64,000 bases of DNA, taken from positions 4,526,001-4,590,000 of the forward strand of contig NZ_CP118158.1 of the NCBI RefSeq assembly GCF_028747785.1, read 5' to 3'. The stretch's first letter is position 1. Each line of letters starts with the position of its first letter. Of this stretch, positions 4,433 through 31,875 are shown piece by piece. The translations under genes were made by a program, and so were the position numbers. The notes below the pieces were generated by a model. That model did not search any database, had not been told where the DNA came from, and worked only from the letters and a program-made list of their open reading frames with translations. Source of the DNA: Halosimplex aquaticum (GTDB taxonomy: Archaea > Halobacteriota > Halobacteria > Halobacteriales > Haloarculaceae).

Positions 4433-4642
4433 CGCCTCGGTGTTGCCGCCGTGGACGGAAGAGTCCGACAACAGTTTAGTTGGTTTTACGCGGTCAAACG
4501 TCCGTGGCGGAACTTTTCGGCGGTGGCTACCCGCAGTAACCTGACGGCGAGATTCGATAAGGCCGGCGTACCGCAGTAGGCGGCGGAGTCGGCGACGAGA
4601 CCGTAGCCTATTCAAACGCCTCAACCGAACGAACCTGTGCGT

Positions 4643-4682
4643 GCGAGGGTAGCCAAGCCTGGAAACGGCGGCGGACTCAAGA
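4643..4682 (+). pseudogene. 5' half of tRNA-Leu(CAA), truncated at the anticodon loop
   Basis: Acceptor strand GCGAGGG (4643-4649), TA, D-stem GCC/GGC, anticodon stem GCGGA and loop CTCAAGA with anticodon CAA at 4678-4680 match the 5' half of a haloarchaeal tRNA-Leu. The loop should be followed by TCCGC; instead GACTG follows. No variable arm, T-arm or CCCTCGC acceptor strand is found in the next few hundred bases. The integrase begins about 80 bases later. The break therefore looks like the left junction of an integrated element, with the 3' half lost. Confidence 0.7.
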
Positions 4683-4764
4683 GACTGGCAAAACGTCCAC
4701 TCCGTTTCCGGTTTCGGACCCGCGCCGTATTGCGATTTTGGGACCCGTTACGGTGAACGAACGA

Positions 4765-5904
4765 ATGAACGGGTCCAATCACAAAACCAGTACTCAGCCC
4801 GGAGAAATCGAGATTCCCTTCCGGGCAGTGGCACCGGAGACAGAAGACTGCTTGAACGACAAACAGCTATTCGACCATCGGACGAAGGCCGAGGAGTTCG
4901 CTCGCTGGATGCTGGTCTTTGGTAAGAACCCCGACCAGGTCGAGGGCTACGCCAAACACACAGCATCCCGAACGATGCACCGCATTGGATACTTCCACCG
5001 ATGGGTCTGGGAGCAAGAAGACGAGTACGTTGCGTTCCCGACGCAGGACCACGCGGAGTCCTATCTCCAAGAACTCGCATACGACGACTACAGTGCCGGT
5101 CACAAGGCCAAATGCCAGCAGGCGTTGAAACGGTACTTCCGCTGGCGGGAGTGCGAATACGACCACGACGAGTGGGAGCCAGAGTACACGTTCTCGACGA
5201 ACAACTCGAACCAGCCCCGCGACTTCCTCTCGATTCAGGAACGACGGCTGATTCGAGAGGCGGCTCTTGAGTACCGTGACATGCCGTACTACCAGAATTA
5301 CTCATCGGAGGAGCGTGAGCGGATGAAGCCGTATATCGCCAAGCGATTGGACAAGCCAGTCGATACGCTGTCGCGGGACGACTGGAACGAGTTGAGTAGC
5401 TGGAAGTTCACCTCTCTGGTCTGGACCTCCCTGGACACGGGTCTCAGACCGATTGAGGTGACACGAGCATCCACGAACTGGGTGGACACCGAGAACGCGG
5501 TACTTCGCATCCCTGCCGACGAATCGTCGAAGAACCGGGATAATTGGGTTGTGAGCCTACGCGACGACACAGCGGAGGCCCTGGAGAACTGGCTCGAAGA
5601 ACGGTCTTACATCCCGATGTACGACGATACGGATGCATTGTGGCTGACGCAGAAGGGAGGTCGATACAAGTCTCAGTCTCTCGGTCGTCTTCTTCGACGC
5701 CTCTGTGACCGCGTAGGAATAGAGCACGAGAACCGAAAGATGAGTTGGTACAGTATACGACACTCTGTCGGCACCTGGATGACCCGCGAGGAGGACCTCG
5801 CAGCAGCGCAGGCTCAGTTGCGGCATAAGACGCCAGAGACGACGATGAAATACGACGCAGCACCGCCCGACGACCGACGAGACGCTCTCGACAAGATGGG
5901 ATGA
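4765..5904 (+). CDS. Tyrosine recombinase/integrase of the island
   Basis: A phage-type integrase of about 379 residues. The N-terminal SAM-like core-binding domain (about residues 35-145) is followed by a catalytic domain. The first catalytic Arg is in DTGLRPIEV, the second in YSIRHS, the later His in QLRHKTPETT and the nucleophilic Tyr in MKYD. The His of the usual HxxR box is Tyr here, a change seen in other haloarchaeal integrases. It should insert and excise the element by site-specific strand exchange at a tRNA gene. The ATG at 4765 was preferred; GTG and TTG codons lie 12 and 27 bases upstream in frame. Its position right at the broken tRNA-Leu is the classic attL arrangement. Confidence 0.92.
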   Translation: MNGSNHKTSTQPGEIEIPFRAVAPETEDCLNDKQLFDHRTKAEEFARWMLVFGKNPDQVEGYAKHTASRTMHRIGYFHRWVWEQEDEYVAFPTQDHAESYLQELAYDDYSAGHKAKCQQALKRYFRWRECEYDHDEWEPEYTFSTNNSNQPRDFLSIQERRLIREAALEYRDMPYYQNYSSEERERMKPYIAKRLDKPVDTLSRDDWNELSSWKFTSLVWTSLDTGLRPIEVTRASTNWVDTENAVLRIPADESSKNRDNWVVSLRDDTAEALENWLEERSYIPMYDDTDALWLTQKGGRYKSQSLGRLLRRLCDRVGIEHENRKMSWYSIRHSVGTWMTREEDLAAAQAQLRHKTPETTMKYDAAPPDDRRDALDKMG

Positions 5905-6853: not shown

Positions 6854-7147
6854 GACAAAGCCACCAGCCAGCCCACCCCCGATATTAAGCCCTTCCAAGG
6901 CCGGTTTCACCCTCTCCACCCCCTCTCGGGCTCACTCACTACCCGGGCCTGTTTCAGCGGTCGGTACAGGGTTATGACGCGGCTGGGTCTGTCGTTGCTG
7001 GTAGCAGTCAAGGGTGTATTTCCACCGGAAACCCCCCATCATTTCGGATTGAGTTCCACACGCCATCTTGTGGTTTTACTTCAATAATTCCACTTTCACC
7101 ACGCTGTTCCTAGATTTAATACAGACGAAGGCGTGCGTTAGACTACA

Positions 7148-8365
7148 GTGACGGACCTGAAAATCACCACCGTCAATGACTTCGACCAGAACGGTATCTT
7201 TCCTCTGCGGAATATCCGCGTGGAAGGGAAAAAGATAGAGACGCCGACAGCAGCCACGATTCCGGGTAAACTCCGCGAGCACGAAGAGTTCCATCCCGAT
7301 AGTGGTGGCGTGAGTGAGTTGTATAGGACCGTGGGGGGAGACGACCTCGACGAAGCGATGCGCGACCCTGACGGGGCTCAGCTCAATGACGACCTCGAAA
7401 GCCAGTATTCGAGCGCACCCGACGACTCGCTGAAAATCACCTTCACGAAGTACACCGAAGCGAGTACCCTCGGTGTAGCCCACGCTCAGTACCTGGCGGA
7501 CCTCCACGCCGCCTATTCGGACATACTCACCGTCCCTCTAATGCCGAAGCTGGTGAGAAACGTCGAAGACGGCCTCAACGACCCCTCCTATCGGTCGTTC
7601 AAAAAGAGCGTAGTGGCGTTCCTGAATCAGGTCGAAGAACGTCATCCCGACGCTCCAGTCATGGGTCTGATTCCACGCTTGGGGTGGGAGTTCATCGACG
7701 ACCTGCTGGAGGTGTATGAGGCTCACGGCGTGACGACCTACGCCTTCGACTTCGACCGCTGTAAAGTGACCACCGGCACGCAGTTGTCGATGGTCGAGCC
7801 GCTGATGCAAAGCATAGCCAACCGAGGCATCGAAGAACACACGCTGTTCTACGCAATTAACCCCTCGCCCGGAACGAGACAGCAGGCAATTGGTGCCCGA
7901 CCAGCTTCTGACATCGCCTCCCTTGGACTCGGCTTCGACATCATTGGCGGATGCCATGTGTCGCCCCGGATGCCCGAAGAGGCCTTCGAGGAGATGGAAG
8001 CAGAACAGGGCGAAGACGGCGAGCCCGAGTTCCGTCTGTTCGACAAGACCGACTGGGTCTACCGCGATATCCCGGTAAGTGACCTACCGGATGCGTTCCC
8101 CAAACGAACTGCCTTCGACGCGGAAGGTATCGCTGCTCGCGTTCGCCGTTCTCCCAACAACGCAAAGTACCGCTTGCAGAAGTTGGTCAACGGCGAGCAG
8201 AAAGCCTTGGCTGCCAAGGACCTCAGAGATACGTTGGCATCCGACCAAGCTTATCCGCAGGTCATCGAAAAGCTCGGCGTCACTGACCAGACGAAGTCGG
8301 CGTACGAACAAACACGAGAGAGTTTCGACGAAGAGCGGTTCCAATCGGGCGTCGGCGACTTCTGA
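7148..8365 (+). CDS. Island protein of unknown function, possibly a TGT-like barrel
   Basis: A 405-residue protein starting at a GTG, with TTTAATAC about 30 bases upstream as a likely TATA box. It has no signal peptide or membrane segment. The middle reads as alternating strands and helices typical of a TIM barrel, for example VMGLIPRLGWEFIDDLLE, GVTTYAFDFD and SLGLGFDIIGG. The N-terminal GKKIETPTAATIPG and the overall strand order recall tRNA-guanine transglycosylase relatives, which in some haloviruses insert deazaguanine into DNA. I see neither the zinc-site cysteines nor partner preQ0 genes, so that link is weak. It converges with the zinc-ribbon gene, leaving five bases between stops. 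Confidence 0.6.
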   Translation: MTDLKITTVNDFDQNGIFPLRNIRVEGKKIETPTAATIPGKLREHEEFHPDSGGVSELYRTVGGDDLDEAMRDPDGAQLNDDLESQYSSAPDDSLKITFTKYTEASTLGVAHAQYLADLHAAYSDILTVPLMPKLVRNVEDGLNDPSYRSFKKSVVAFLNQVEERHPDAPVMGLIPRLGWEFIDDLLEVYEAHGVTTYAFDFDRCKVTTGTQLSMVEPLMQSIANRGIEEHTLFYAINPSPGTRQQAIGARPASDIASLGLGFDIIGGCHVSPRMPEEAFEEMEAEQGEDGEPEFRLFDKTDWVYRDIPVSDLPDAFPKRTAFDAEGIAARVRRSPNNAKYRLQKLVNGEQKALAAKDLRDTLASDQAYPQVIEKLGVTDQTKSAYEQTRESFDEERFQSGVGDF

Positions 8366-8370
8366 GATAA

Positions 8371-8850
8371 CTACCGGGTGTCCGGACCTGGACACCGTCC
8401 AACAGCCGCTTTGCGTTCGTGCTCTATCGTCTGCATCGGCTGGCCGCATTCCGGACAGAGGTCGTACTGTGGTTGGTCATCAGCGAACTGTGCGGTGACT
8501 TCTGCCAGTTTCTCCCATCCGTATCGTTCGCCGTCATCCAGATAGTGACCGGCCCAGAGTAGAAGCTGGGTGTCTGGTCCCGGCGCAGTCAGTAGATAGC
8601 TTTCATCGTCCGCGGCCAGAACCAGTTTGGGCCCAAAATATGGAGTTGTTCGCTTGATGACCGTGGTCTCTGACGGAACGTCGCCATCCTGTGTTAGGCG
8701 AGTCACCACATCGACAATCTGTACGTTGTCACCGCGTTCGGCCCTAAGCATCACCATTTTCGAATCGTACTCGGTTGCTGGTGGACCGGGTTCTGCCTCC
8801 CGCTCAACCAACGGCTGGTGTGCTGCCTTGTTTGTGGATGTCCCCTGCAT
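8371..8850 (-). CDS. Uncharacterised protein with C-terminal zinc ribbon
   Basis: A 159-residue protein. An extended, probably flexible N-terminus is followed by a beta-rich domain (about residues 35-110, with VMLRAERGDNVQIVDVV and PKLVLAADDESYLL). The end has CPECGQPM and a later GRCPG, a CxxC...C arrangement suggesting a metal-binding ribbon, although the fourth ligand is not obvious. The reverse complement of the upstream bases holds TATTTTAA about 25-30 bases before the ATG, consistent with a leaderless promoter. Function unknown. It lies within the island's early gene block and is transcribed against it. Confidence 0.65.
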   Translation of the reverse strand: MQGTSTNKAAHQPLVEREAEPGPPATEYDSKMVMLRAERGDNVQIVDVVTRLTQDGDVPSETTVIKRTTPYFGPKLVLAADDESYLLTAPGPDTQLLLWAGHYLDDGERYGWEKLAEVTAQFADDQPQYDLCPECGQPMQTIEHERKAAVGRCPGPDTR

Positions 8851-9337
8851 GAGTGGGTCTAAATTCGATGGAGGGTTAAAATAGTGGTCAACGTCAATTG
8901 TAGGGGACTATCTACAAGGCCATAGTTACAGACCAACTTCGTCGCTGATAGCAGGGTCCGCCTATCTTTTCTCAATTTTCCTTCCGTTTCGCCGCCAGCT
9001 TGGCTTCCGAGAATAAGTGTTGGTAATACTCCGGCAGAGCAACTGACAACCGCCTTTCACCTGAGCCTGTCATAACTCAGACAACGGAAGCTGTCGAGAA
9101 AGTAAATAGTTACACTAATATCTGACATGGGTCTTTAAATACCGATGAGCGTCCCCGGATGCGGGTGGGATTATTTAAGTAATTTCAGGTATGTCGATAT
9201 CCGGGTGAATCCGGCAAACACACCATTTGGGACACCGCCGTGGGCTCACATTTCCTGGCTGGTTGGTCATCAGTGGCCACCTCCAGGGGTGAAAACTGGT
9301 ATTAAGGGACTATCCCGACAATTAATACAGAAAACCG
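8851..9337. other. AT-rich intergenic region ahead of the helicase block
   Basis: This 487-base region is more AT-rich than its neighbours and holds no convincing gene. It carries the promoter of the leftward zinc-ribbon gene near 8875, TATA-like boxes at 9134-9141 (TTTAAATA) and near 9172 (TTTAAGTA), and a copy of GCTGATAGCAGG at 8944-8955 that recurs twice downstream of the helicase gene. It could hold control sequences or an origin for the element, but no long iteron array is visible. Confidence 0.4.
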
Positions 9338-9469
9338 ATGGACATCACGACTGTTAGCTTAGATAAATCGACGCGGGATGGCCTCCGCGCAATTAAAGAG
9401 GAGCAGGGGTTTGAACACTACGACGCCACTGTTTCATGGCTCATGGAGGAGGTGGAGTGCAGTAACTAA
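9338..9469 (+). CDS. 43-residue ribbon-helix-helix-like protein
   Basis: A short gene from ATG 9338 to TAA 9467-9469. The product starts MDITTVSLDKSTRDGLRAI and continues as a charged helix (KEEQGFEHYDATVSWLMEEVE). The pattern of one beta strand, a helix, a short turn and a second helix is that of small haloarchaeal ribbon-helix-helix or antitoxin-like DNA-binding proteins. It ends 147 bases before the helicase gene and may regulate it. The start ATG lies below an AT-rich stretch (TTAAGGG, TTAATAC). Length and sequence pattern argue for a true gene; its target is unknown. Confidence 0.6.
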   Translation: MDITTVSLDKSTRDGLRAIKEEQGFEHYDATVSWLMEEVECSN

Positions 9470-9616
9470 CGGTGGGTGAGGAGTGCCGAGCAAAAGGGGC
9501 CTGCTCGGCGATGGAAGCCGTCGGATGGGCCGGGCCTTCCGTGTACTCATTGCGCGCGGGTTCGCATGGCTCTTTCGCTCCGATGGTAGCCCACCGCAGA
9601 CGCCCTTGTAGGATAC

Positions 9617-12439
9617 ATGACCGAGAACCTACCACCATCGAACGACCGCACGCGAACGTACCCGGTAGTGTCGGATTTAACGCTCGCTGTTACACCGGAT
9701 GCTGATACCGGCGAAGTGACGCTCCGAATCTTCCGTAACGACGAGGAGCTATACACGGAATCCACGAAAGTGACCACTTTGTACAGCGGCAACTGGTGGT
9801 CGGAGGGCAATCCTGAGCGAATCACCAAACGGGTCGCCGAAGCTGCATCCGATGTAGACGTATCTACGCTACGAACCGGAATCCGTGGGACGTTCTTCGA
9901 AGTGGGTGTAGACCGACTCGCTACCAAGGAAATCCCCTGGACTGGCGGCCCTCGTTCCCAGGCAGACGGGGAGTTCCCGATTAAGGAGTGCGTTCCTCCA
10001 GAGCGCGAAGCGGAGTCGATTGATGTAGAGCAACGACGAAATGAGATACAGAACAAACGGTACGACGAGTGGCAAAACGGTGACCGGTTAGAAGCGTGGG
10101 TAGACGACCCAGGGATAGGAAAAACGACGACCGCTGCAAGGGCCGCGTCTGAGCATAACCACCCTCACGTCTTCTATCTCCCGTCACACGAAAACGCGCA
10201 TGAGTTCACAAACGACTCTGCCAAGCCCGATGGGTACCACCATCTCAAGGGACCCTCCCAACCCCGTGAAGACTGTTGTATGGACGCTAAGATGAATGAC
10301 GAGCCATGTGACACTCACGGCGACCCCGAGGACTGGCCCCGAATGTGCCCAGCTTTCCAGCGCGACGAGAATGACCCCATACGCCAACATTATGAGGCGA
10401 CTGCGGCTGAAATCGGTCCACGAAAAGCTCATCGAGAGCTTGCCCTGCATAGCGAACACGAGCACGAGTGGCACGGAGAGCGATGCGCCTGGGAGGAACA
10501 ATTCGACGACTTAGAAGACGAAGAGCGTATCGTCACCGTTCAGAACTACCTGGCGGTCCCCTCTGTTCAGTCGGCTGGGTTTGCCATCGTAGACGACATC
10601 CAGAATCTGCTGGAAGATGACGAAAAGATGGTCGCCCGTGAATTGGAGTACATTGTTCGGACGCTCGACACCCTCGCTGATGAGAGTTCAATGCAAGCGC
10701 AGTATCAAGCGTTAAGCCATTTTGCAGCTGATGTTGTTGGGCAACTCTACGAACCGGACCCAGACTCGCTGAGTGACCTCAAACCCCCAGATATCGAGGT
10801 ACCGAATCGTCTCCAAGACCGCATCGATGATGAACAGGATGCCCTCGCTGAGACGTTAGCATGGCTACAGCACGGGTACGACGAGAAGGTTCGCAGCGAC
10901 ATCTCACGCGGTGAGTGGGACGGTACACCGCTGGGGATGAACATACTCTTTGGGGCCTGTGCAGAAGCAGGACTGACCGGAGAATCTGCCAGACGTGCGA
11001 TTGCTACATCTCCTGGCATAGACGCCTGTCCGAGCTGTAATCGGGTTGAACAGTTTGGGAAGCAGGAGGGTAAACATCAGTGTGACTGGTGTGGATGGCA
11101 CGAAGATGAAGATACGCTAACGAGTTCTCAATCAGAGATAGCTCGGGCAACCGCATGGCTTGATGTTCCCTCGCCAGAACGCGATGACGACCCAGCTCTC
11201 AAGTACAGAGAGATTCCGCGAGTGAGTGACCTCCCTACCCCGAGTCAAACGCTAATTCTAGACGCAACCCCCTCGCCAGAGCTCTACGCGTATCTGTTCG
11301 GGATAGACCCGGACGAGGTGAAATTGGCTGGTGACACACCAGCAAAATTAAACGCTCATATCACCCAGGTTACCGACGGTCAGTACCATCGGAGTACGAT
11401 TGTGCGTGATGATGAAGCAGGTGAGCGACTACGCGACCGGTTCCAACGCATCATCAAATACCGCTGCGACTACCACGACCGAGTGCTGGTGGTCGGCCAC
11501 AAGAAGAACGAGGGGTACTTCGACATTCCAGAAAACGCCGAGTGGATGCACTTCTACGCGGGTCGAGGGCTCAACCGCCAGGAGAGTGATGCAGTGGTCG
11601 TTCTTGGAGCACCCCATGCCAACATAGATGACCTCAAGCGGACGGCTGGGCTGCTCGCTGTCGGTCGAGAAGATGTGCGAGTCGGGGGCGTCGAACAGAC
11701 ATCGCGCCGTGATGAAGATGGTAACCCTGTCAGCTTACCTCCAGTCTACAGAAAACTCTACTACGACGATGGAACAGGCGTCGGGAGGGCTATCCCGACG
11801 AAAAGCTACACCGGCTTGGTCGGGACGCTCTTCCGCGATACCCGCGAGTCGGAACTCGTTCAACTCGCCCATCGAGTGCGTCCCGTCACGGCGACTAAGA
11901 CGAAACATCTCGACCTGCTAACGAACGTTCCGACACCGCTTCCCATCGACACGCTGGCGACTCTGACCGAACTGAGCGACCCAGCTATCGCACAAACCGA
12001 CCTAACGAATAGAGCCCTCCGCTTCATGCGGTACGTCCTCGGCGTCATTCACCGGGGCGGCCCCGATGGATTTGACCCAGATGCGGTATTTGAATCGCGC
12101 GACGAGGAACAGGTCATTGGCACGGTCAGCGCGTTTCACGAGTTGTCACAAAGTGACCGTTGTGACTTCGACGTGACGGGGGACACTATTCGAAATTGGC
12201 TGAACGAGTTAGCGGAGTACGGCCTCGTTGAGAAGGGCGAGTACAAGCAACGCGAGGGGCGGCTCTACACAGCTACTGGTTCTACTTTGGAAAAGGCGTT
12301 ATTACTATTATCTAATAATTGGGTTTCAAAAGTAGACGCTGTCCGTCGATTAACCGAAAAAATGGATGAGGCAGACGGCTCATTGCAATGGCTGGAGTGG
12401 GCCGACGAAGTGTTCGAGTTACCGGAAGCATCTCTGTAA
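9617..12439 (+). CDS. Large helicase-like ATPase with zinc ribbon and winged-helix tail
   Basis: A 940-residue protein. The P-loop DPGIGKTT lies near residues 164-171 and a Walker B-like FAIVDDIQNLL near residue 320. TLILDATPSPELY resembles helicase motif III, and a late HRVRPV resembles the motif VI arginine segment. A four-Cys ribbon (CPSC...CDWCGW) sits between the two ATPase halves, and the last 100 residues read as a winged helix (DTIRNWLNELAEYGLVEKG). This is the architecture of plasmid or virus replication helicases of superfamily 1 or 2, so it is likely the element's main replication or transfer enzyme; the exact role is inference. The ATG at 9617 follows the small RHH-like gene. Confidence 0.75.
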   Translation: MTENLPPSNDRTRTYPVVSDLTLAVTPDADTGEVTLRIFRNDEELYTESTKVTTLYSGNWWSEGNPERITKRVAEAASDVDVSTLRTGIRGTFFEVGVDRLATKEIPWTGGPRSQADGEFPIKECVPPEREAESIDVEQRRNEIQNKRYDEWQNGDRLEAWVDDPGIGKTTTAARAASEHNHPHVFYLPSHENAHEFTNDSAKPDGYHHLKGPSQPREDCCMDAKMNDEPCDTHGDPEDWPRMCPAFQRDENDPIRQHYEATAAEIGPRKAHRELALHSEHEHEWHGERCAWEEQFDDLEDEERIVTVQNYLAVPSVQSAGFAIVDDIQNLLEDDEKMVARELEYIVRTLDTLADESSMQAQYQALSHFAADVVGQLYEPDPDSLSDLKPPDIEVPNRLQDRIDDEQDALAETLAWLQHGYDEKVRSDISRGEWDGTPLGMNILFGACAEAGLTGESARRAIATSPGIDACPSCNRVEQFGKQEGKHQCDWCGWHEDEDTLTSSQSEIARATAWLDVPSPERDDDPALKYREIPRVSDLPTPSQTLILDATPSPELYAYLFGIDPDEVKLAGDTPAKLNAHITQVTDGQYHRSTIVRDDEAGERLRDRFQRIIKYRCDYHDRVLVVGHKKNEGYFDIPENAEWMHFYAGRGLNRQESDAVVVLGAPHANIDDLKRTAGLLAVGREDVRVGGVEQTSRRDEDGNPVSLPPVYRKLYYDDGTGVGRAIPTKSYTGLVGTLFRDTRESELVQLAHRVRPVTATKTKHLDLLTNVPTPLPIDTLATLTELSDPAIAQTDLTNRALRFMRYVLGVIHRGGPDGFDPDAVFESRDEEQVIGTVSAFHELSQSDRCDFDVTGDTIRNWLNELAEYGLVEKGEYKQREGRLYTATGSTLEKALLLLSNNWVSKVDAVRRLTEKMDEADGSLQWLEWADEVFELPEASL

Positions 12440-12497
12440 GAGCGGAACTCTCTTGGCTGACGTTGTGGAGAGATTGACGCCACCGTTTCACCTGACC

Positions 12498-12560
12498 ACC
12501 TGCTATCAGCAACGACCGCCCGGTAGGTCGGCAGCGAGTTTGACGATGCTGATAGCAGGT
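12498..12560. repeat. Perfect 14-base inverted repeat behind the helicase gene
   Basis: ACCTGCTATCAGCA at 12498-12511 and its exact complement TGCTGATAGCAGGT at 12547-12560 are separated by 35 bases. The core GCTGATAGCAGG also occurs at 8944-8955, before the helicase gene. The site lies 58 bases after the helicase stop and overlaps the start of a small open frame. It could be a transcription terminator, a protein-binding site or part of a replication origin; no T-run follows, which argues against a simple terminator. Confidence 0.6.
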
Positions 12561-13403: not shown

Positions 13404-14472
13404 GAGGGTGTCATAGAATCCATCTCATACCGTGATGACGGTGCTTCCCGGATTGTCACCTCGTTCGTAGTTGGTGACGGCGACGACGAGTCGAACGCAG
13501 AGCGCAAGGAACACCTGCGCTCGGGCGTGGACGCGGCCTCGGGCGCGTAGCGTCCCGAGGCCGCAGTCCTTGACCGCATCGTTCGTTCGCTCGACCTGAC
13601 TCCGGCGGTTGTACGTCTCGTCTAGGATCGACTGTTTGAGCTGAATCTCGTCACTGTGTTTCTCGATGCGGTCTTCGACTCTGTACTTGATATTGAGCGG
13701 ATCGTCGGTGTTTCGCGGGTTGTACGGGGCGATTGGCACGACTCCTGCGGTCAGCAGGAGGTCGTGCCAGTCGAGCGTGTCGTAGGCGCTGTCACCGAGC
13801 ATCCAGATCGGCTGGGCGACGGCGAGCGCGTCACGGGTGACGCGCATCGCCGTCTCTTCTGCGGCTTGTTTGCTCTCGGTGAACTCGGCTGCAATCGGGA
13901 TCTTTGCGCCGGTTGAGACGATCGTACAGCCGTAGCCGTAATAGTACTCCTCAGCGGTTGGGTCGTAGTTCTTCGACGCATCTGGGTCGGATGGCATCGC
14001 TCGCACGTCCGTCGAATCGATTCGGTAGGTCATGTCGAGCAGGCCGCGGGCGGCGGCCTGCTCGACGAGGTGGTCGAAGACTTCGTCGACGACGTGTTCG
14101 AGGTCGGTGAGGAAGCGATCGACCGCGTCTCTTGAGGGCGGTCGATCGAAGCCACAGCTGAGCCAGACGACCGTGTTCTGGAGTTCTCGTGTGACCGGGC
14201 GAATGCCGTAGATGTCCTTGTAGTAGCAGTGGAGGAACGCTCGGAAGAGTTCTGGTGGGTGGTGGTCTCGTGTTCGCCCCCGGCGAGCGGGGGCGAACAC
14301 GTCGAACTCGCTGAAAAAGTCGAACTCAAGATGCTCGAACAACGCGAGCGTCTCGGTAGCCACGACATTGAAGAACTCGTCGATAGAACCCTCTTCTTGC
14401 AGGGTGCTGGCGCTCGTAGACACAGTTCCAACACCCTGCGTCCTCGTGTGTGAGGCTTTCTATGACACCCTC
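13404..14472 (-). mobile_element. IS5-family insertion sequence (ISH11-like), copy 1
   Basis: A 1069-base element bounded by 15-base inverted repeats, GAGGGTGTCATAGAA at the left and its complement at the right. It holds one leftward transposase gene. Length, repeat size and transposase match the description of Halobacterium ISH11. The flanks (CTTCCTC left, CCACACA right) share no target duplication, so this copy has probably taken part in a later recombination or deletion. It differs from copy 2 by one base that I can find, at 14282. Confidence 0.9.
13425..14423 (-). CDS. IS5-family transposase, copy 1
   Basis: A 332-residue DDE transposase. The first catalytic Asp is in MTYRIDSTDVRAMP, the second in WMLGDSAYDT and the Glu in the NRRSQVERTND helix. 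The N-terminal part (HHPPELFRAFLHCYYKDIYG) is the usual IS5/IS4-type helical region. It spans nearly the whole element and appears intact. It differs from copy 2 at one residue, Arg here and Gly there, in the APAR(R/G)GRTRD loop. It should catalyse cut-and-paste movement of both copies. Confidence 0.92.
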   Translation of the reverse strand: MSTSASTLQEEGSIDEFFNVVATETLALFEHLEFDFFSEFDVFAPARRGRTRDHHPPELFRAFLHCYYKDIYGIRPVTRELQNTVVWLSCGFDRPPSRDAVDRFLTDLEHVVDEVFDHLVEQAAARGLLDMTYRIDSTDVRAMPSDPDASKNYDPTAEEYYYGYGCTIVSTGAKIPIAAEFTESKQAAEETAMRVTRDALAVAQPIWMLGDSAYDTLDWHDLLLTAGVVPIAPYNPRNTDDPLNIKYRVEDRIEKHSDEIQLKQSILDETYNRRSQVERTNDAVKDCGLGTLRARGRVHARAQVFLALCVRLVVAVTNYERGDNPGSTVITV

Positions 14473-18668: not shown

Positions 18669-19747
18669 ATAAAGAGGGTGTCATAGAATCCATCTCATAC
18701 CGTGATGACGGTGCTTCCCGGATTGTCACCTCGTTCGTAGTTGGTGACGGCGACGACGAGTCGAACGCAGAGCGCAAGGAACACCTGCGCTCGGGCGTGG
18801 ACGCGGCCTCGGGCGCGTAGCGTCCCGAGGCCGCAGTCCTTGACCGCATCGTTCGTTCGCTCGACCTGACTCCGGCGGTTGTACGTCTCGTCTAGGATCG
18901 ACTGTTTGAGCTGAATCTCGTCACTGTGTTTCTCGATGCGGTCTTCGACTCTGTACTTGATATTGAGCGGATCGTCGGTGTTTCGCGGGTTGTACGGGGC
19001 GATTGGCACGACTCCTGCGGTCAGCAGGAGGTCGTGCCAGTCGAGCGTGTCGTAGGCGCTGTCACCGAGCATCCAGATCGGCTGGGCGACGGCGAGCGCG
19101 TCACGGGTGACGCGCATCGCCGTCTCTTCTGCGGCTTGTTTGCTCTCGGTGAACTCGGCTGCAATCGGGATCTTTGCGCCGGTTGAGACGATCGTACAGC
19201 CGTAGCCGTAATAGTACTCCTCAGCGGTTGGGTCGTAGTTCTTCGACGCATCTGGGTCGGATGGCATCGCTCGCACGTCCGTCGAATCGATTCGGTAGGT
19301 CATGTCGAGCAGGCCGCGGGCGGCGGCCTGCTCGACGAGGTGGTCGAAGACTTCGTCGACGACGTGTTCGAGGTCGGTGAGGAAGCGATCGACCGCGTCT
19401 CTTGAGGGCGGTCGATCGAAGCCACAGCTGAGCCAGACGACCGTGTTCTGGAGTTCTCGTGTGACCGGGCGAATGCCGTAGATGTCCTTGTAGTAGCAGT
19501 GGAGGAACGCTCGGAAGAGTTCTGGTGGGTGGTGGTCTCGTGTTCGCCCCCCGCGAGCGGGGGCGAACACGTCGAACTCGCTGAAAAAGTCGAACTCAAG
19601 ATGCTCGAACAACGCGAGCGTCTCGGTAGCCACGACATTGAAGAACTCGTCGATAGAACCCTCTTCTTGCAGGGTGCTGGCGCTCGTAGACACAGTTCCA
19701 ACACCCTGCGTCCTCGTGTGTGAGGCTTTCTATGACACCCTCATAAA
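18669..19747 (-). mobile_element. IS5-family insertion sequence (ISH11-like), copy 2, with ATAAA duplication
   Basis: The element occupies 18674-19742, 1069 bases, with the same 15-base terminal inverted repeats and orientation as copy 1, offset by exactly 5270 bases. It is flanked by the direct repeat ATAAA (18669-18673 and 19743-19747), a plausible target duplication. This copy is thus a simple insertion. It landed just upstream of the nucleotidyltransferase pseudogene, whose TATA-like TTTAAG box begins right after the duplication. Confidence 0.92.
18695..19693 (-). CDS. IS5-family transposase, copy 2
   Basis: A 332-residue transposase identical to copy 1 except for Gly in place of Arg in the APARGGRTRD loop (base 19552 is C where 14282 is G). 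The three acidic residues are present: Asp in RIDSTDVRAMP, Asp in LGDSAYDT and Glu in SQVERTND. It appears intact. Near-identity of the copies means recent duplication or gene conversion, and it provides 1 kb of homology for recombination that could delete the 4.2 kb between them. Confidence 0.92.
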   Translation of the reverse strand: MSTSASTLQEEGSIDEFFNVVATETLALFEHLEFDFFSEFDVFAPARGGRTRDHHPPELFRAFLHCYYKDIYGIRPVTRELQNTVVWLSCGFDRPPSRDAVDRFLTDLEHVVDEVFDHLVEQAAARGLLDMTYRIDSTDVRAMPSDPDASKNYDPTAEEYYYGYGCTIVSTGAKIPIAAEFTESKQAAEETAMRVTRDALAVAQPIWMLGDSAYDTLDWHDLLLTAGVVPIAPYNPRNTDDPLNIKYRVEDRIEKHSDEIQLKQSILDETYNRRSQVERTNDAVKDCGLGTLRARGRVHARAQVFLALCVRLVVAVTNYERGDNPGSTVITV

Positions 19748-24498: not shown

Positions 24499-24939
24499 GT
24501 GAACCCTGATGCAGCGAGCTCGAAGGACTGGTATCAGGTCCGACTGACGGTTCCGTGGGTCGTACCAGGAGCACCGGGCGTTCAGGACGCGATCAACATC
24601 AGCGTCGCCGAGGTCGGAAAACGAGCATCCGCCTCGAACGTCCGCTCGTGCGATATCGAAGTTCAGGATCTTGCCTGTCCGGGATGCGGATACGAAATGG
24701 AAGCCGCACTCTGTACGACGGGTTACGGGATGGTCGTCCTGGACGTCACTGTCGAGGTGACGGCTCGATCACTCGAGGATAGTCGAACGGTAGCAAAGCG
24801 GGAGCTGGGCTCGCGGATGAAAGACATCCCGCTGACCGTAATCGAGGCCGCCCCATTGGAGACTGGAGACACTCAGGCCCCGGGACGAGCAGACCTTGGT
24901 GCGCCATCTACACAGCACCGAGAATCGAATCGGATGTGA
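24499..24939 (+). CDS. UPF0212 family protein, island copy
   Basis: A 146-residue protein starting at GTG 24499. The pattern WYQVRLTVPWVV, then AINISVAEVGKR, LACPGCGYEMEAALC and AKRELGSRMKDIPLTVIE follows the small archaeal UPF0212 (DUF555) family across its length. That family is usually a single-copy core gene with a CxxC pair; its function is unknown. An extra copy inside a mobile island is unusual. The last 30 residues are polar and exceed the family core. No promoter motif is obvious. Confidence 0.6.
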   Translation: MNPDAASSKDWYQVRLTVPWVVPGAPGVQDAINISVAEVGKRASASNVRSCDIEVQDLACPGCGYEMEAALCTTGYGMVVLDVTVEVTARSLEDSRTVAKRELGSRMKDIPLTVIEAAPLETGDTQAPGRADLGAPSTQHRESNRM

Positions 24940-25140: not shown

Positions 25141-25573
25141 ATGGAATACAGTCACCGCTACCACGCCTACCCGACAGAAGAGGTAGCGGAAGAACTGGAA
25201 CACCATCTTGACGTTCATCGCCAACTCTACAACCACGTCCGATGGGACTACGAACAAGCCCCAGAAGACGACAAACCGTCCGAGTACGACCAGAACGATA
25301 AACTCCCCGAGTGGAAGCGCAAGTGGCCGCTATTCAGCGAGCTACACTCGAAAGCCGCACAAGCCACCGTCGCACGCTTCCACCGCAACCTCTCGAACCT
25401 TCGCAAAAAGAAAGAGAAAGGGTACAACGTCGGTCGTCTCAAGCGGCAAGCACCCAGCGACTATCGGAGCGTGACGTACAACCAGTCCGGTTTCGACCTC
25501 GATGAAAAGAGGGGCCACGACAAATACGCATACGTCCGCTTCAGCAAAATCGGGTGGGTGAAAATCCGATCGC
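25141..25573 (+). pseudogene. N-terminal fragment of an IS1341-type TnpB
   Basis: From ATG 25141 the frame reads MEYSHRYHAYPTEEVAEELE, then HHLDVHRQLYNHVRWDYE and later FHRNLSNLRKKKEKGYNVG, the N-terminal helical part of haloarchaeal TnpB. It stops at VRFSKIGWVKIRS, where the adjoining IS1595-type element begins; the last two residues and the stop come from that element. The RuvC catalytic core is missing, so no active nuclease can be made. The remaining two thirds are not found beyond the element, so they were deleted. Confidence 0.8.
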
Positions 25574-26566
25574 TCTTGTGAAGCACGTTGTTGATTTTCA
25601 GAGGGCAGCGTCGAGCGCATGTTTGAGCGCTTCGTCACCTGGTTTTCTGTAGAGTTCGCACCGGAGCTGGAATGCTCTGAGATACGGCGTTAGCTTGTCT
25701 TTCGAGACGCCTCGGTGGGGCGAGAGCCACCGTCGCGTCAGCGACGCGTGGCTCTCGCAACCGTTGACGTGTACGTCGCCATCAGCGTATTCACCGTCGC
25801 CGTGGACGACGTATTCGCGGGTGAATGCGTCATCGTCCTCTAGCGGGTCGTACGCCCGAAATCCGTCGGTGTAGACGGTCAGCGACTCCTGTGTGCGGTT
25901 GCCGAGCAGGAGTCGCACGGTCGATTCTTCGGCGGATTTCGCTGGCACGACGTACCGCTCGTCCGAGCCGCGATCGACCAGCGTGAACACCGGCGGTTTG
26001 TCGCCGTCGTACGAGCCTCGCCCACGCGTGGACAGGCCACGCGAGCGCGACTCCTGGTCGCGCTCGCGGCCTTTCAGCCCCGCAGACACGTACACTTCGT
26101 CGATTTCGACCGGCCCGGACAGCGTCATCGAAGGCGCGTCGAGCGATCTGGCGAAGCGCTCGACGCGCCGTCTCACCGTTCTGTACGAAAGATCGAGCTC
26201 TGCCTCGATCTGGCGAATGCTCGTGTTGAACCGTAAGAAGACGTAGATCGTGAAGTACCACTCTTTCAGCGAGAGCTTCGAGTGAGCGAAGATCGTGCCG
26301 GTCTTGTCGTTGAACGTCCGACCGCAATTCTTACACAGATACCGCTGGTACTCCCGATAGCTGCCGTTTCTGACCGTCAGGTCAGAACGGCAGCGGGGGC
26401 ACTCGACGCCATCACGCCAGCGAACCTGTTGGAGCAGGTTCGCGGCAGCCGATTCAGACACGAACCGGCGTATTGGGAACATATCGGGCACCGCTGGCGC
26501 GGTGCCCTTGCCCTCTTCGACTTCCAGCCGCAGCTCTCGCTATCAACAATCTACTTCGCAAGAGCG
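25571..26566 (-). mobile_element. IS1595-family insertion sequence (ISH4-like)
   Basis: An element of about 996 bases with imperfect inverted ends: CGCTCTTGTGAAGCACGTTG at the left, and at the right the complement of CGCTCTTGCGAAGTAGATTG. It contains one leftward transposase gene. The flanks (AATCCGAT left, TAGGAGAT right) show no target duplication, and they belong to unrelated genes: TnpB on the left and the AAA ATPase on the right. The insertion was therefore followed by a deletion, or two copies recombined. Confidence 0.82.
25598..26491 (-). CDS. IS1595-family transposase
   Basis: A 297-residue ISXO2-like transposase. An N-terminal zinc ribbon (CPRC...CKNCGRTF, about residues 34-61) precedes a winged-helix segment (NTSIRQIEAELDLSYRTVRR). 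The catalytic core follows, with Asp in VEIDEVYVS, Asp in VYTDGFRAYD and a final HVNGCESHASLTRRW segment. The zinc ribbon, helix-turn-helix and DDE order is diagnostic. The gene looks intact. Its 5' side lies toward the ATPase gene, so its promoter end replaced the start of that gene. Confidence 0.9.
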   Translation of the reverse strand: MPDMFPIRRFVSESAAANLLQQVRWRDGVECPRCRSDLTVRNGSYREYQRYLCKNCGRTFNDKTGTIFAHSKLSLKEWYFTIYVFLRFNTSIRQIEAELDLSYRTVRRRVERFARSLDAPSMTLSGPVEIDEVYVSAGLKGRERDQESRSRGLSTRGRGSYDGDKPPVFTLVDRGSDERYVVPAKSAEESTVRLLLGNRTQESLTVYTDGFRAYDPLEDDDAFTREYVVHGDGEYADGDVHVNGCESHASLTRRWLSPHRGVSKDKLTPYLRAFQLRCELYRKPGDEALKHALDAAL

Positions 26567-28542
26567 TAGGAGATATTATTCTGAATTTGCTATCAGCCAT
26601 TGATAGAACGAAATTAGATTCTCTTGACAAACACCGATATGATTATCTCATCGATGAATTCGTTAGGAAATATATCGTTGAGGAAGACCCCACAAAGGGG
26701 GAGTATGTTCGTTCCCCACGAGAACTACAGTCTCTACTTAGAGACTGCAAATCAAGGGCAAAGGAACGAATGGATGACGAACCTCTGGCCGAGTTGGAAA
26801 GTCCATTCGAATATTTGAGCTGTGAACAAATGGGAGATTCATATAAACTTATAGAGCGGCTCTACTCCAGAGATTTCCCCGGTTATGACCAATTACATAG
26901 CCGAACAAACACGATCCTGACTGGTCCAAGGGGATGTGGGAAGACGACTATTTTGAGGAATATGAGTATAGAGACAAAGTTGAAGACTGAGCAGATCACG
27001 TCTGCTAGTGATATTGACTATATAGGTATTTTCTATCACTGTCGAGATCTATATTTTGCATTCCATTATATGGATGACAAAAATCCGAACTCATTCAATC
27101 AGGATTTATTAATCCACTATTTTTCACTTTCCCTGCTCAAGAAGTTTATAAACCGGATAAAACTACTCCGGGATGAATTTGGGAATAATGTCTCTGAAGA
27201 AGCAGTAGACCTGCTTGAAGACAAAATATCTAGGAATCTACAGACCTACTCTAGTCCTCCTACTGGTACTGACATGCTTGACCACATTACCTCTGTTCTA
27301 GAAAAGGAGAAGAGGAAAGTTGATGACACTCTAAGGCGTGGTAACGCTGGTTTCAGCAATCAGGCTAATTTAATGGGAATCGACAGTCTTCCTAAGACTT
27401 GCAGGAACTTTGTAGATTCCATTGATTGGTTGGAAAACACTCCTGTTTTTCTCTTGGTAGATGACTACTCTCTTCCGAAGATCACAGAAGGAATGCAGAG
27501 TACGTTAAATGATTTGACGATGGAACGGTGGGAACAGGTCTACTTTAAAATCTCTACAGAAAGTATTGCATCATTCCATCCCTATGACCGTTCTGGTAAG
27601 CTGCTTGAGGAATCAAGGGAATTTGAGGTTGTTGACCTTGCAAATCACTTCATCAGCGACAGAGAGAAACGAAACAAATTCTTGATGGAGGTTCTGAACA
27701 CACGGTTAGAAACTACCAAGGGAATTCATTCCAAATATTCTGATATTACGGATATTCTCGGAGAGAGACCCTACGAATCATATAACGACCTCGCCCGAAA
27801 GATACGGAGTGATTCTGATGTTAACTATGCTGGATTCGAAACTTTGAGGGACTTATTCTCGGGTGACATCTCCGAGATGCTTCGACTTGTAAGGGGGATG
27901 TTTGAAGAAGCTGGCCGGTATGAGGACTGGGAAGAAGGAGCCATCGACTTGCCAATTCCTCCAGAAAAACAAAATGAAGTTATAAAGCGATATGGGGGAA
28001 GCTTCTTAAATAAGATCGAGTCTATACCGGAGACTGGTGAACGATTGAGGGAGTTTGCTGAAGTTTTCGGTAGGAATTCAAATAAACTCCTAATGGAGAA
28101 AAACAGTAAAAATCAGACTGGTAATCCTCCTCACCAAGCGTTCCGAATTGAGATTCGAGACTCGTTTTCGTTTGAATCGGGTCAACATCTTAATGAAGTC
28201 CTCACCGTTCTACGTAGAGACACTTCACGCCGGCCCGACAAAGAGGAGATAGCAGAAGAGGCACAGTCGATCTACGATGACCTGCTCCAGTATGGAATTT
28301 TGTTACTTGATACACGTGGGAAAAGTATCCGAGGTGGAGCGGTTCCTCGGCTATATTTGCGGAGATTATTGCTTCCAAAGTTCAATCTCACCCCAAGCCA
28401 GCGAGATAATGTCTCAATGGAACCTGCCGAGTTCGTTTATATGTTGATCAACCCAGAAGGCTACAATGAATCAGACTTCGAACGACCGGAAAGTGAAAGT
28501 CTCTCCAAATATTACAATGATACAGACGAGAGTTCGGAGTAA
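26567..28542 (+). CDS. AAA-type ATPase of an AT-rich two-gene module, N-terminus lost
   Basis: An open frame of about 658 residues that begins at the edge of the IS1595-type element with no ATG until RMDDEPL, so the natural start is lost or replaced. Walker A is ILTGPRGCGKTTILRNM and Walker B is PVFLLVDDYSLP; an Orc/Cdc6-like AAA core is plausible. A long helical C-terminal region ends in a segment resembling a winged helix (DLLQYGILLLDTRGKSIRGG). Codon use is AT-rich, unlike both the chromosome and the rest of the island. The partner gene starts 11 bases after its stop, so they form an operon. Function unknown; context suggests a defence ATPase. Confidence 0.72.
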
Positions 28543-29074
28543 GTGAGTTCGATATGGATTTGCCAGAGATAACTAAGTTTGATAATGTTGAAATTGATTC
28601 CCCGACATCGATAGTTGCTGTTGCAGGTTTCGAGGACAGGGCCAGAGCAGTATTTGAAGAATTTACCACTCGCAGGGACAAAGAACTGATTCGCAGCGGT
28701 GCTGGGATCCGTTATCAACCCTTCAATAATCGGAACGATGTAGAGGCATTGGATAGTGGGATGGCCTCGCTCGGTCTGTCTGACGATTCAACCTATAGTC
28801 TCGTTTTCGATCGATATGACCCAGATTCGTTTGAACCCATCTTTGAGAATTTCTTGGATTCAGTCTCTGAGGACCACGTTCTTCTCGACATTTCTGGAAT
28901 GTCAAAATTGCTGATTATGATTGCATTGAATGTCCTAGCAGATAAGGACTATTCCGTGACGATATTTTATGCTGAAGCAGAAGAATATACTCCTACAAAA
29001 GAGGAATACACCACAACTCTTCAATCAAGAGAAGATTCAGATAGGACACCAGCCTTCCTTACCGATGGGATCTA

Positions 29075-30674
29075 CGATATTGGTACGTGTTTACCCCGAG
29101 GACTCAACGGCCGGCACAGCCTGATCTCGTGAAATCATCTCGTTGTTCCGGGAGACTCGCTTGAGCTCGTCGTATGGATTGCGTCCCTGCTGGCGCCATG
29201 TCGCCAGCAGGGACAGCACCGTCTCATGAACGAACATCCCGCGGTCATTGCGGAGCGTTCCGATCAGTTTCCGGAGAACCACCGGCTCACGAAGCGCGTT
29301 TTCGGCGGCATTGTTCGTCGGAGAGACCGCTGGCTCACCGACGAAGGTGAGCCAGTGGTCGAGGCCACCTTCGATCTTTCCGAGTAGTGTTGCCACTGGT
29401 CCGTCGGGAACTGACCGTTCAATCAGTGATTCAAGCTCTCTCCGCGCCACACGCTGGAGCTCTGCTCGCTCACGAATGGTCAAGTCGCTCTCCAGCCGGG
29501 TCTGGAGAGCGACGTACAACTGTTTGAGAGAGTCGTAGATCGGTTCGCCTTCCGGTTGCTTCTCAGCGGCATCTTCAGCCTCTCGCAAAATATGAGCCCA
29601 ACACCGCTGGAGATTGTCGCTGAAGGCTGGATAGGCTGTCCACCCATCACAAATGACCGTTCCCGCGAAGTCCTCGCCGAGGACTTCCGCGGGAACATCG
29701 CTTCCACGACTCTCTCTAACCGCGTAGAGCGTGTGGTTCTCGGTGGTGAACGTCCAGATCCATGCTTGCTCACCATCTCGCTTGATGCCTGTTTCATCGA
29801 TGTGGACAACGTCGGCTTGCTGGATCTGGCGACGGATCTGTTCGTATTCACAGCGACCGGCGCGCGCAGCGCGCTCGGTCGCGTGCCACGCAGTCGCACC
29901 TGACAACTCCAGTCCGTGTAGCTGCTCGAAACGGTCTGCAATCTTCCGATAGGGAAGGCGGTAATCGTACCGCGATAGTGCTGATTGGGCGATAACGTTC
30001 ACCCCGAACTGCCCCTCATCGGGGCAGTCGGGGTGTGTAGCGACTGTCTCGGTTCCACAGGAGTCGCATCGGTAGCAGTGGCGGTTGTACTGCGTGAGTT
30101 CTGGTGGTTGTGGATCTGGTATCTTCTCGACGAGTCGGGGGCTGACGCCCACCGACTCGTCGAAGTGTTGGCCACACTCTGGACAGCAGTCACGGGTGAC
30201 CTCAACTTCTTCGTCCAGATCAGCGGTAGAGCGCCACTCTGGCTCGTGACCGTCTTTTCGTCCGGGAGTGCCGCCGTCAGTTCTGACATCGTCGTCTTCG
30301 TCATCTTGCGAGGTCGGGGACTCGTCAGTCCCCGACCGTCGCTTACTCGGTGGTGTATGTGGATTCTCGTATTTGCGAAGCCGTGTTTCGAGTTCTTCGA
30401 TCCGTTCGTCTTTCTCCTGAAGCTTCTCCTCAAGATCGTTGATTCGTTCTTCCATCTGGAGAAACCGCGAGAGAAGTTCGTCTTTGCTGAGGTCATCTCG
30501 ATCCACTATGACCACCTCAGCGGTCCCTCAGCAGGGTCACCGGGATGGTCTCCGAGCGGAGACCATCCCTGGAGAAGTTCAATTAGCCCTTGCTGAGGGT
30601 TCATATACCCCCGGTTGGTCGCCTGCTACGAGACAGTGGCGAAATTCATTGGGGCTAAACACGTACCGATATTG
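29075..30674 (-). mobile_element. IS66-family insertion sequence with 8-bp target duplication
   Basis: The element spans 29083-30666 (1584 bases) with inverted ends, GTACGTGTTTACCCC at the left and the complement of GTACGTGTTTAGCCCC at the right. It is flanked by perfect CGATATTG repeats at 29075-29082 and 30667-30674, the 8-base duplication typical of IS66. It carries a single transposase gene; the tnpA/tnpB helper genes of bacterial IS66 are absent, as is common in archaea. Confidence 0.93.
29091..30515 (-). CDS. IS66-family transposase
   Basis: A 474-residue transposase. An N-terminal coiled coil (about residues 8-50, ERINDLEEKLQEKDERIEE) and a proline/acid linker lead to a zinc-binding motif (CCPECGQHF ... 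CYRCDSC). The DDE core has Asp in VVHIDETGIK, Asp in VICDGWTAYP and Glu in TNNAAENALR. Gene order within the element and all motifs fit IS66. It appears intact and GC-rich, in sharp contrast to the AT-rich gene it interrupts, so it is a later arrival. Confidence 0.93.
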   Translation of the reverse strand: MVIVDRDDLSKDELLSRFLQMEERINDLEEKLQEKDERIEELETRLRKYENPHTPPSKRRSGTDESPTSQDDEDDDVRTDGGTPGRKDGHEPEWRSTADLDEEVEVTRDCCPECGQHFDESVGVSPRLVEKIPDPQPPELTQYNRHCYRCDSCGTETVATHPDCPDEGQFGVNVIAQSALSRYDYRLPYRKIADRFEQLHGLELSGATAWHATERAARAGRCEYEQIRRQIQQADVVHIDETGIKRDGEQAWIWTFTTENHTLYAVRESRGSDVPAEVLGEDFAGTVICDGWTAYPAFSDNLQRCWAHILREAEDAAEKQPEGEPIYDSLKQLYVALQTRLESDLTIRERAELQRVARRELESLIERSVPDGPVATLLGKIEGGLDHWLTFVGEPAVSPTNNAAENALREPVVLRKLIGTLRNDRGMFVHETVLSLLATWRQQGRNPYDELKRVSRNNEMISRDQAVPAVESSG

Positions 30675-31513
30675 TAACTAGTAGAGGTTTATCTTCAGCG
30701 GTAGGGGGTGACCAGCCGATGATTGTGGTAGCTTTTCCGACATTCAACCATCAGGAACTGATGGCCCTAAGCGAGTGAGCTATCCCCCACTCTCATGGTT
30801 TCAATCGAAGGAATTCCTCGGCTTGATGCGGATGAATGGCGGAGAGAGAGCATTCATGACCTTAACGAGGGTGTAGAATCACACATTAGTGTTGACTGGC
30901 GAGAGACTAGTACCTTTGACTATGAAGAGACGGCGAACTTATTGAATAATATTCATGATGAATATGGTGATAAGTATCGGGTAGTTCTGGCACCAACAGG
31001 AAGTAAACTACAAACCGTAAGTTGCCTGTTATTCAGGCGCCAGCATCAAGACGTACAAGTAATATATCCGGTGACAAGAGATTATTCGGAAACTTATTCG
31101 AAGGGCTGGAAAGCCACATGGGGGATTGAACTGGGGCACATTGATGATACAATTACTACTGAACAAGAAGAATATCAAGATAAGATCTCTAAGTTACGAG
31201 CAAAAATTGAGAAGATGAATAATAGTAGTTAAAGGTAACTAATTTCCCGGCTCTTGAATAGCTTATCTGAAACCATGCTCGGGCCTTTTAACAACAGTCT
31301 GTTCAAAGGGAATCCATTCCAGATAGAAGAATTCCCATTTTGAGCTGAGGCTCGCCAGGGACTGATTAGAGACTTGGGCAGGGGAAAGAACTAGAACCCC
31401 TTACCACCATACTACAGGCGAACCGCAGGATGGCAACTACCTACCGACATGCCGTATATGACTACAAATCCGGGACGCAAAAATCGACCGAGATCCCAAT
31501 TCCTTAGACGGCC

Positions 31514-31746: not shown

Positions 31747-31831
31747 AAGATCGCTGATTTACACGGGGAATCGAGTCCGTGAAGACACCTGCTCTCAAGG
31801 CAGGCGCGTTAGGCCACTTCGCTATCCCACC
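31747..31831 (-). pseudogene. tRNA-Ser(UGA)-like gene with lost 3' end
   Basis: On the minus strand from 31831 there is a 7-base acceptor strand (GGTGGGA), TA, a D-arm closed by GCG/CGC, an anticodon arm CCTGC-CTTGAGA-GCAGG (anticodon TGA at 31795-31797) and a variable arm TGTC...GACTC, as in class II tRNA-Ser. Beyond 31771 no T-arm with TTCRANY and no acceptor strand matching TCCCACC is found. The 5' part is conserved and the 3' part is foreign. It lies exactly at the right edge of the island. Confidence 0.6.
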
Positions 31832-31875
31832 GCGTCTGTCTATTCCGCTCGTCCATTCTAAGACCTGTCGATCGT

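Follow-up and report, generated by a model that had tools for sequence, protein, structure and literature searches.

An operon remnant in a low-GC island

The 64-kb stretch of DNA analysed here (the window) carries an ORC-CDC6-like ATPase gene and a partner gene that we interpret, with a probability of about 60%, as the decayed remains of an operon for methylation-coupled defence gained by horizontal transfer, in which a CARF protein would gate an ATPase ring that turns a kinase on. The imported operon was probably antiviral, and its effector was most likely a kinase joined to the ATPase and since lost from the window. With the kinase core gone and the partner broken, the copy in the window cannot function as a system; for this host it offers the ordinary lesson of an imported operon taken apart by insertion sequences. 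The wreck also leads to directly testable, intact operons, one in Natrinema zhouii and others in bacteria.

The 2-kb intervals with the lowest GC of the whole stretch (0.42–0.43) lie at 26.5–29 kb, compared with 0.55–0.58 in the surrounding island and 0.67–0.73 in the chromosome. The ATPase and partner genes themselves have a GC of 0.41–0.43 and a GC3 of 0.36–0.42, and neighbouring island genes and insertion sequences range from 0.56 to 0.62. All three haloarchaeal copies, i.e., those of the window, G198 and Natrinema zhouii, have the same foreign GC of 0.42–0.43. The island spans about 4.6 to 31.8 kb and encodes a tyrosine integrase near its left edge (4738–5904, + strand; PF00589, 3.7e-20). 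Inspection by eye revealed what look like broken-off 5' halves of tRNA genes at both edges, tRNA-Leu(CAA)-like on the left (4637–4685, +) and tRNA-Ser(TGA)-like on the right (31757–31832, −); neither was called by ARAGORN or Rfam, and a search for an attachment repeat shared by the two ends of the island found none. An ATPase_2/DUF234 ATPase and a TFIIS/OB-fold ORF lie between two nearly identical copies of an insertion sequence (13425–14423 and 18695–19693, −), which are directly oriented and 5270 bp apart, in a composite-transposon-like arrangement. The island also encodes a DUF555 protein (24499–24939, +; PF04475, 1.9e-36), usually the product of a core archaeal gene.

The truncated ATPase and the decay of the window copy

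The ATPase gene (26566–28542, +) is the 5'-truncated rest of a Ser/Thr-kinase::ORC-CDC6 fusion. Although the reading frame is already open at 26473, homology starts only at 26566, and the product corresponds to residues ~190–847 of an 847-residue intact fusion. Identity is 78% to residues 190–847 of the G198 fusion (locus L012) and 73% to the ATPase part from Natrinema zhouii (L052). The protein matches the Pfam ORC-CDC6-like family PF24389 (3.4e-42, 145 bits versus a curated cut-off of 27) and the PADLOC model CARF6--CARF_STK_AAA (9e-21); the window's genome has no second PF24389 gene. Both Walker motifs, A (GPRGCGKT) and B (VDDYS), are present in the window and do not vary in any of the 64 relatives compared. 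Foldseek comparison of its AlphaFold (AF2) model (pLDDT 88.8) gave archaeal Cdc6/Orc1 on DNA as the best match (probability 1.00), along with CED-4 and the RdrA ring; as judged from this predicted structure, the ATPase has the ORC/Cdc6 fold. ATPases of this type have roles in transposition and replication too.

The truncation is due to a 996-bp IS1595-family element (25571–26566, −; transposase 25598–26491, NF033547, 6.7e-44) with terminal inverted repeats CGCTCTTG... at either end, four copies of which exist in the genome. Homology to the fusion begins at the last base of the element, its right end. No target duplication was found at this element, so the sequence on its left is not the original flank; a TnpB-like N-terminal fragment, recognised by eye (25141–25581, +), abuts the left end, consistent with rearrangement there. 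Neither the kinase core nor the methyltransferase of the operon was found anywhere in the window's genome and both were therefore lost, most simply through a deletion at the IS edge. A second element, of the IS66 family (1586 bp, 29082–30667, −; transposase 29091–30515, NF033517, 3.6e-96), interrupts the partner gene; it has terminal inverted repeats and is flanked by a 6-bp direct repeat, GATATT, at 29076–29081 and 30668–30673.

A preliminary description of this DNA had reported an AT-rich pair separated by 11 bases, an AAA-type ATPase with intact Walker motifs and a suggested Orc/Cdc6 link, and a partner that was split and shifted by one base at 30776, the whole being imported and later disabled. 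These claims hold: the gap between 28542 and 28554 is real, the split is the work of the IS66-type element, and comparison with the L012 partner places the frame switch at about 30771. What had been missed is the truncation of the ATPase itself, whose homology begins at residue 190 of 847.

A predicted tandem-CARF partner

The partner gene survives as an N-terminal piece with the first CARF-like domain (28554–29081, +; 74% identity to the L012 partner; PADLOC CARF6, 1e-6) and a C-terminal piece with the second (30668–31232, +; 91% and 75% identity in two frames to the same protein; CARF6, 8.6e-11). The pieces were searched separately, and structure prediction was performed on the intact Natrinema zhouii homologue (L052), which matches CARF6 at 3e-23. 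The model (pLDDT 94.4) consists of two Rossmann-like domains, for which Foldseek returned the CARF proteins Csm6, Cam1, Can2, Csa3 and Card1 at probability 1.00; these matches cover single domains with modest TM-scores, the best about 0.57 (target-normalised). Since cation-chloride transporter tails and other proteins also score, at lower probability, the CARF call leans on profile and fold jointly. On these two grounds, we assign the partner to the PADLOC CARF6 class, as a protein with a predicted tandem CARF fold. The two halves had no significant match in Pfam, a partner profile found no relative among PDB sequences, and the matches in a library of viral structures were weak and scattered. 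The partner was also considered as a phosphoribosyltransferase or metabolic enzyme, which was dropped as profiles and fold point to CARF.

Ligand-binding sites of CARF proteins are formed by the loops after strands 1 and 4. The conserved residues of the L052 partner, G25-F-E-x-R29, D112-x-S-x-M-S117 and P283-x-G-S-K287, lie in these loops, and D112, G285 and K287 are invariant in 52 of 52 relatives. The motifs DISGMSK and PTGSK singled out from the window sequence are thus largely borne out, except that the lysine of the first varies. Such strong conservation suggests a bound ligand, and the predicted fold points to nucleotide sensing. An earlier proposal that the partner is nucleotide-related fits this picture in so far as the protein looks sensor-like; it does not look like the effector that had been proposed.

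The intact operon, its gene order and its distribution

Two haloarchaea, G198 and Natrinema zhouii (L052, on the same contig as G740), have an intact three-gene operon consisting of a DNA methyltransferase, a Ser/Thr-kinase::ORC-CDC6 fusion and the partner, with ATPase parts 73–78% identical to that of the window. In G198 the genes are located at 7290–8390, 8392–10935 and 10946–12037, respectively; in Natrinema zhouii the operon occupies about 2768.3–2773.1 kb of NZ_CP059154. The notion of an ATPase-plus-effector pair thus gives way to a three-gene operon in which the kinase is fused to the ATPase. A toxin-antitoxin pair was likewise dropped in view of the methyltransferase and kinase. The kinase residues K51, E65, H144, D146, N151 and D171 and both Walker motifs are conserved in 62–64 of 64 relatives, so that both activities of the intact fusions are probably used.

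Direct protein searches found no close homologue in 97 relatives or in phages, nor did a single-sequence search of genome contigs; an alignment-based search succeeded. Among sampled genomes, PF24389 genes are present in 4 of 392 from the class and in 15 of 393 from the phylum. An alignment search with the ATPase alone, from which the adjacency counts derive, revealed 70 bacterial and archaeal loci, in groups as diverse as Lachnospiraceae, Planctomycetes, Acidobacteria, Verrucomicrobia, Gammaproteobacteria and ANME archaea, and a further 3 on viral contigs. The partner lies directly downstream of the ATPase in all 60 of the 60 loci whose sequence extends far enough, with a median overlap of 4 bases. 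An N6/N4 methyltransferase is located directly upstream in 54 of 69 loci. In a sister clade, set apart with a support of 1.00, DruA (PF14236, down to 7e-117) takes the place of the methyltransferase. We take DUF4338 to be the former name of the DruA family. A published survey annotates DUF4338 as an acetyltransferase-like domain (PMC10853773). DruA was observed beside kinase::ORC-CDC6 and CARF genes in L103, L104, L107, L109, L110 and L111, outside Druantia proper.

The frequent methyltransferase allows for another reading, namely a methylation-guided restriction-like system of the BREX/Pgl or MADS kind, in which the ORC-CDC6 ring would read DNA methylation, the kinase would act downstream, and the CARF protein would be structural or regulatory and bind no second messenger. 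The kinase, methyltransferase and ATPase do match MADS models (mad6, 7e-22; mad2, 1e-10; mad8, 4.5e-5), a ring around DNA has been proposed for ATPases of the ORC/Cdc6 clade in Ssp systems (PMC10853773), and the operon has no cyclase, with Cas10 rare among carriers. However, the strongly conserved CARF loop residues suggest a bound ligand, and the DruA clade and a type with a SIR2 effector have no adjacent methyltransferase; we consider this reading rather unlikely.

Exchangeable effectors and defence neighbourhoods

Other effectors stand before the ATPase-partner core, or are fused to it, in archaea and plasmids, often together with a DNA methyltransferase. These include HD-CE (L013 and L014), an HD-CE-like gene (L011), PRTase-CE (L038), TIR (L039), SIR2 (L043) and a metallophosphatase (L041), and those partners from such loci that were tested also matched CARF6 models. 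The occurrence of other effectors on the same core suggests that ATPase and partner together are a switch and the rest an output; we infer a sensor-switch with the kinase as one exchangeable output. Directly downstream of an ATPase-CARF core with a C5-methyltransferase, L038 has an HhH-GPD base-excision glycosylase-like gene (6981–7622, by Pfam), and L040 has a gene similar to it by eye (11718–12536) in the same position.

The defence-like character proposed in the preliminary description agrees with the neighbourhoods. For 119 neighbours of bacterial and archaeal loci, 286 PADLOC models were matched at 1e-15, compared with 8 for 119 controls drawn from arbitrary parts of carrier archaeal genomes, a qualitative comparison given that the control is archaeal only and that redundant models, not genes, were counted. 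Matches near the loci include type I and III restriction, Gabija, Hma and MADS-like proteins. No laboratory test of the intact operon was found in the literature. It is very improbable that the genes encode a transposon-like or housekeeping regulator devoid of a defence role: ORC/Cdc6-type ATPases do act in transposition and replication as well (PMC10853773) and the window copy lies in an IS-rich island, but the patchy distribution within the class, the foreign GC, the defence-rich neighbourhoods and the swaps to TIR, SIR2, HD-CE and PRTase-CE effectors argue for defence.

Proposed mechanism and the source of the signal

For methylation-coupled defence with a CARF-gated kinase, the following sequence of events can be envisaged. 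The methyltransferase would mark self DNA or be otherwise coupled to target recognition, and the ORC-CDC6/STAND-type ATPase domain would form a ring that probably sits on DNA. The two CARF domains, on a single chain, would bind a nucleotide or oligonucleotide signal and gate the ring; activation would then turn on the fused kinase, and phosphorylation of host or virus proteins would stop the infection. Signalling would thus run from CARF to ring ATPase to kinase.

The conserved three-gene core contains no CD-NTase, cyclase or messenger synthase. Weak SMODS matches in some genomes fall in frames of ~460 residues that are probably tRNA nucleotidyltransferases. The Cas10 palm domain was detected in a single one of 16 carrier genomes and not in the window's genome; a role as type III CRISPR accessory was dropped on account of its absence from 15 of them. 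With no synthase in the operon and Cas10 this rare, candidates for the CARF ligand are an unknown messenger, a phage-derived nucleotide or RNA ends. In a variant that otherwise keeps the preferred scheme, the partner would sense RNA ends or other damage products, e.g., 2',3'-cyclic-phosphate RNA fragments, instead of a dedicated cyclic oligoadenylate. Such sensing has been proposed for cyclase-less CARF proteins in CoCoNuT and RtcR systems (PMC11090510) and would suit carriers that lack Cas10, but the operon has no RNA-processing enzyme, and we regard the variant as unlikely.

If intact operons protect, the CARF-gated kinase would represent a CARF-dependent immunity that does without Cas10, has a kinase as its output and probably marks self by DNA methylation, and the effector swaps on one core would show how such switches get re-tooled. 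A wider and only tentative proposal, held with less than even confidence, is a widespread Cas10-independent CARF signalling immunity built on a fixed ORC-CDC6 and tandem-CARF switch, tied to a methyltransferase or DruA, with swappable outputs, the kinase being that of this clade.

Comparison with known systems

The partner shares its CARF fold, by structure prediction, with the type III CRISPR effectors Csm6, Can2, Card1, Cam1 and Csa3; unlike them, it is a tandem CARF on one chain without an effector domain, and Cas10 is missing from nearly all carriers (15/16). The operon has no CD-NTase of the kind found in CBASS. Druantia combines DruA with a DruE-type helicase, a combination that was not found; DruA occurs beside the sister clade only and is lacking in the window. 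BREX type 2/Pgl and MADS also bring together a methyltransferase, a kinase and an ORC/Cdc6-type ATPase. However, the present core comprises methyltransferase, kinase-ATPase and CARF partner only, without the PglZ, PglX, PglW and helicase set or further conserved genes, and out of mad1–mad8 there are domain-level matches to mad2, mad6 and mad8 alone.

PF24389 systems with HD-CE or PRTase-CE, reportedly covered by Nicastro et al. in their 2023 survey of nucleotide-targeting effectors, have an ATPase of the same family, a CARF-like partner of the same kind after it and a DNA methyltransferase in the vicinity; the effector here, in contrast, was a Ser/Thr kinase and not a nucleotide-degrading enzyme. 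The CARF6 class is said to figure in the CARF classification of Makarova et al. from 2020. Its PADLOC models (CARF6--CARF_STK_AAA and CARF6--CARF_CARF_CARF) are matched by the ATPase, the partner halves and the intact homologues, with the same kinase-AAA-CARF domain set; the Ser/Thr kinase that this class has in its protein or operon occurs in the intact relatives and is deleted in the window. Unlike the PADLOC model, a single polypeptide of 1187 positions, the window and most relatives have CARF as a separate gene; the relatives mostly have a DNA methyltransferase in front, and the window copy is broken. The ATPase and partner families are already catalogued in Pfam and PADLOC, the window pair being a degraded member, and published surveys probably mention parts of the operon. 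The present analysis shows the order of the three genes, how widely the operon occurs, the clade with DruA and the exchange of effectors, all of which may have been published before.
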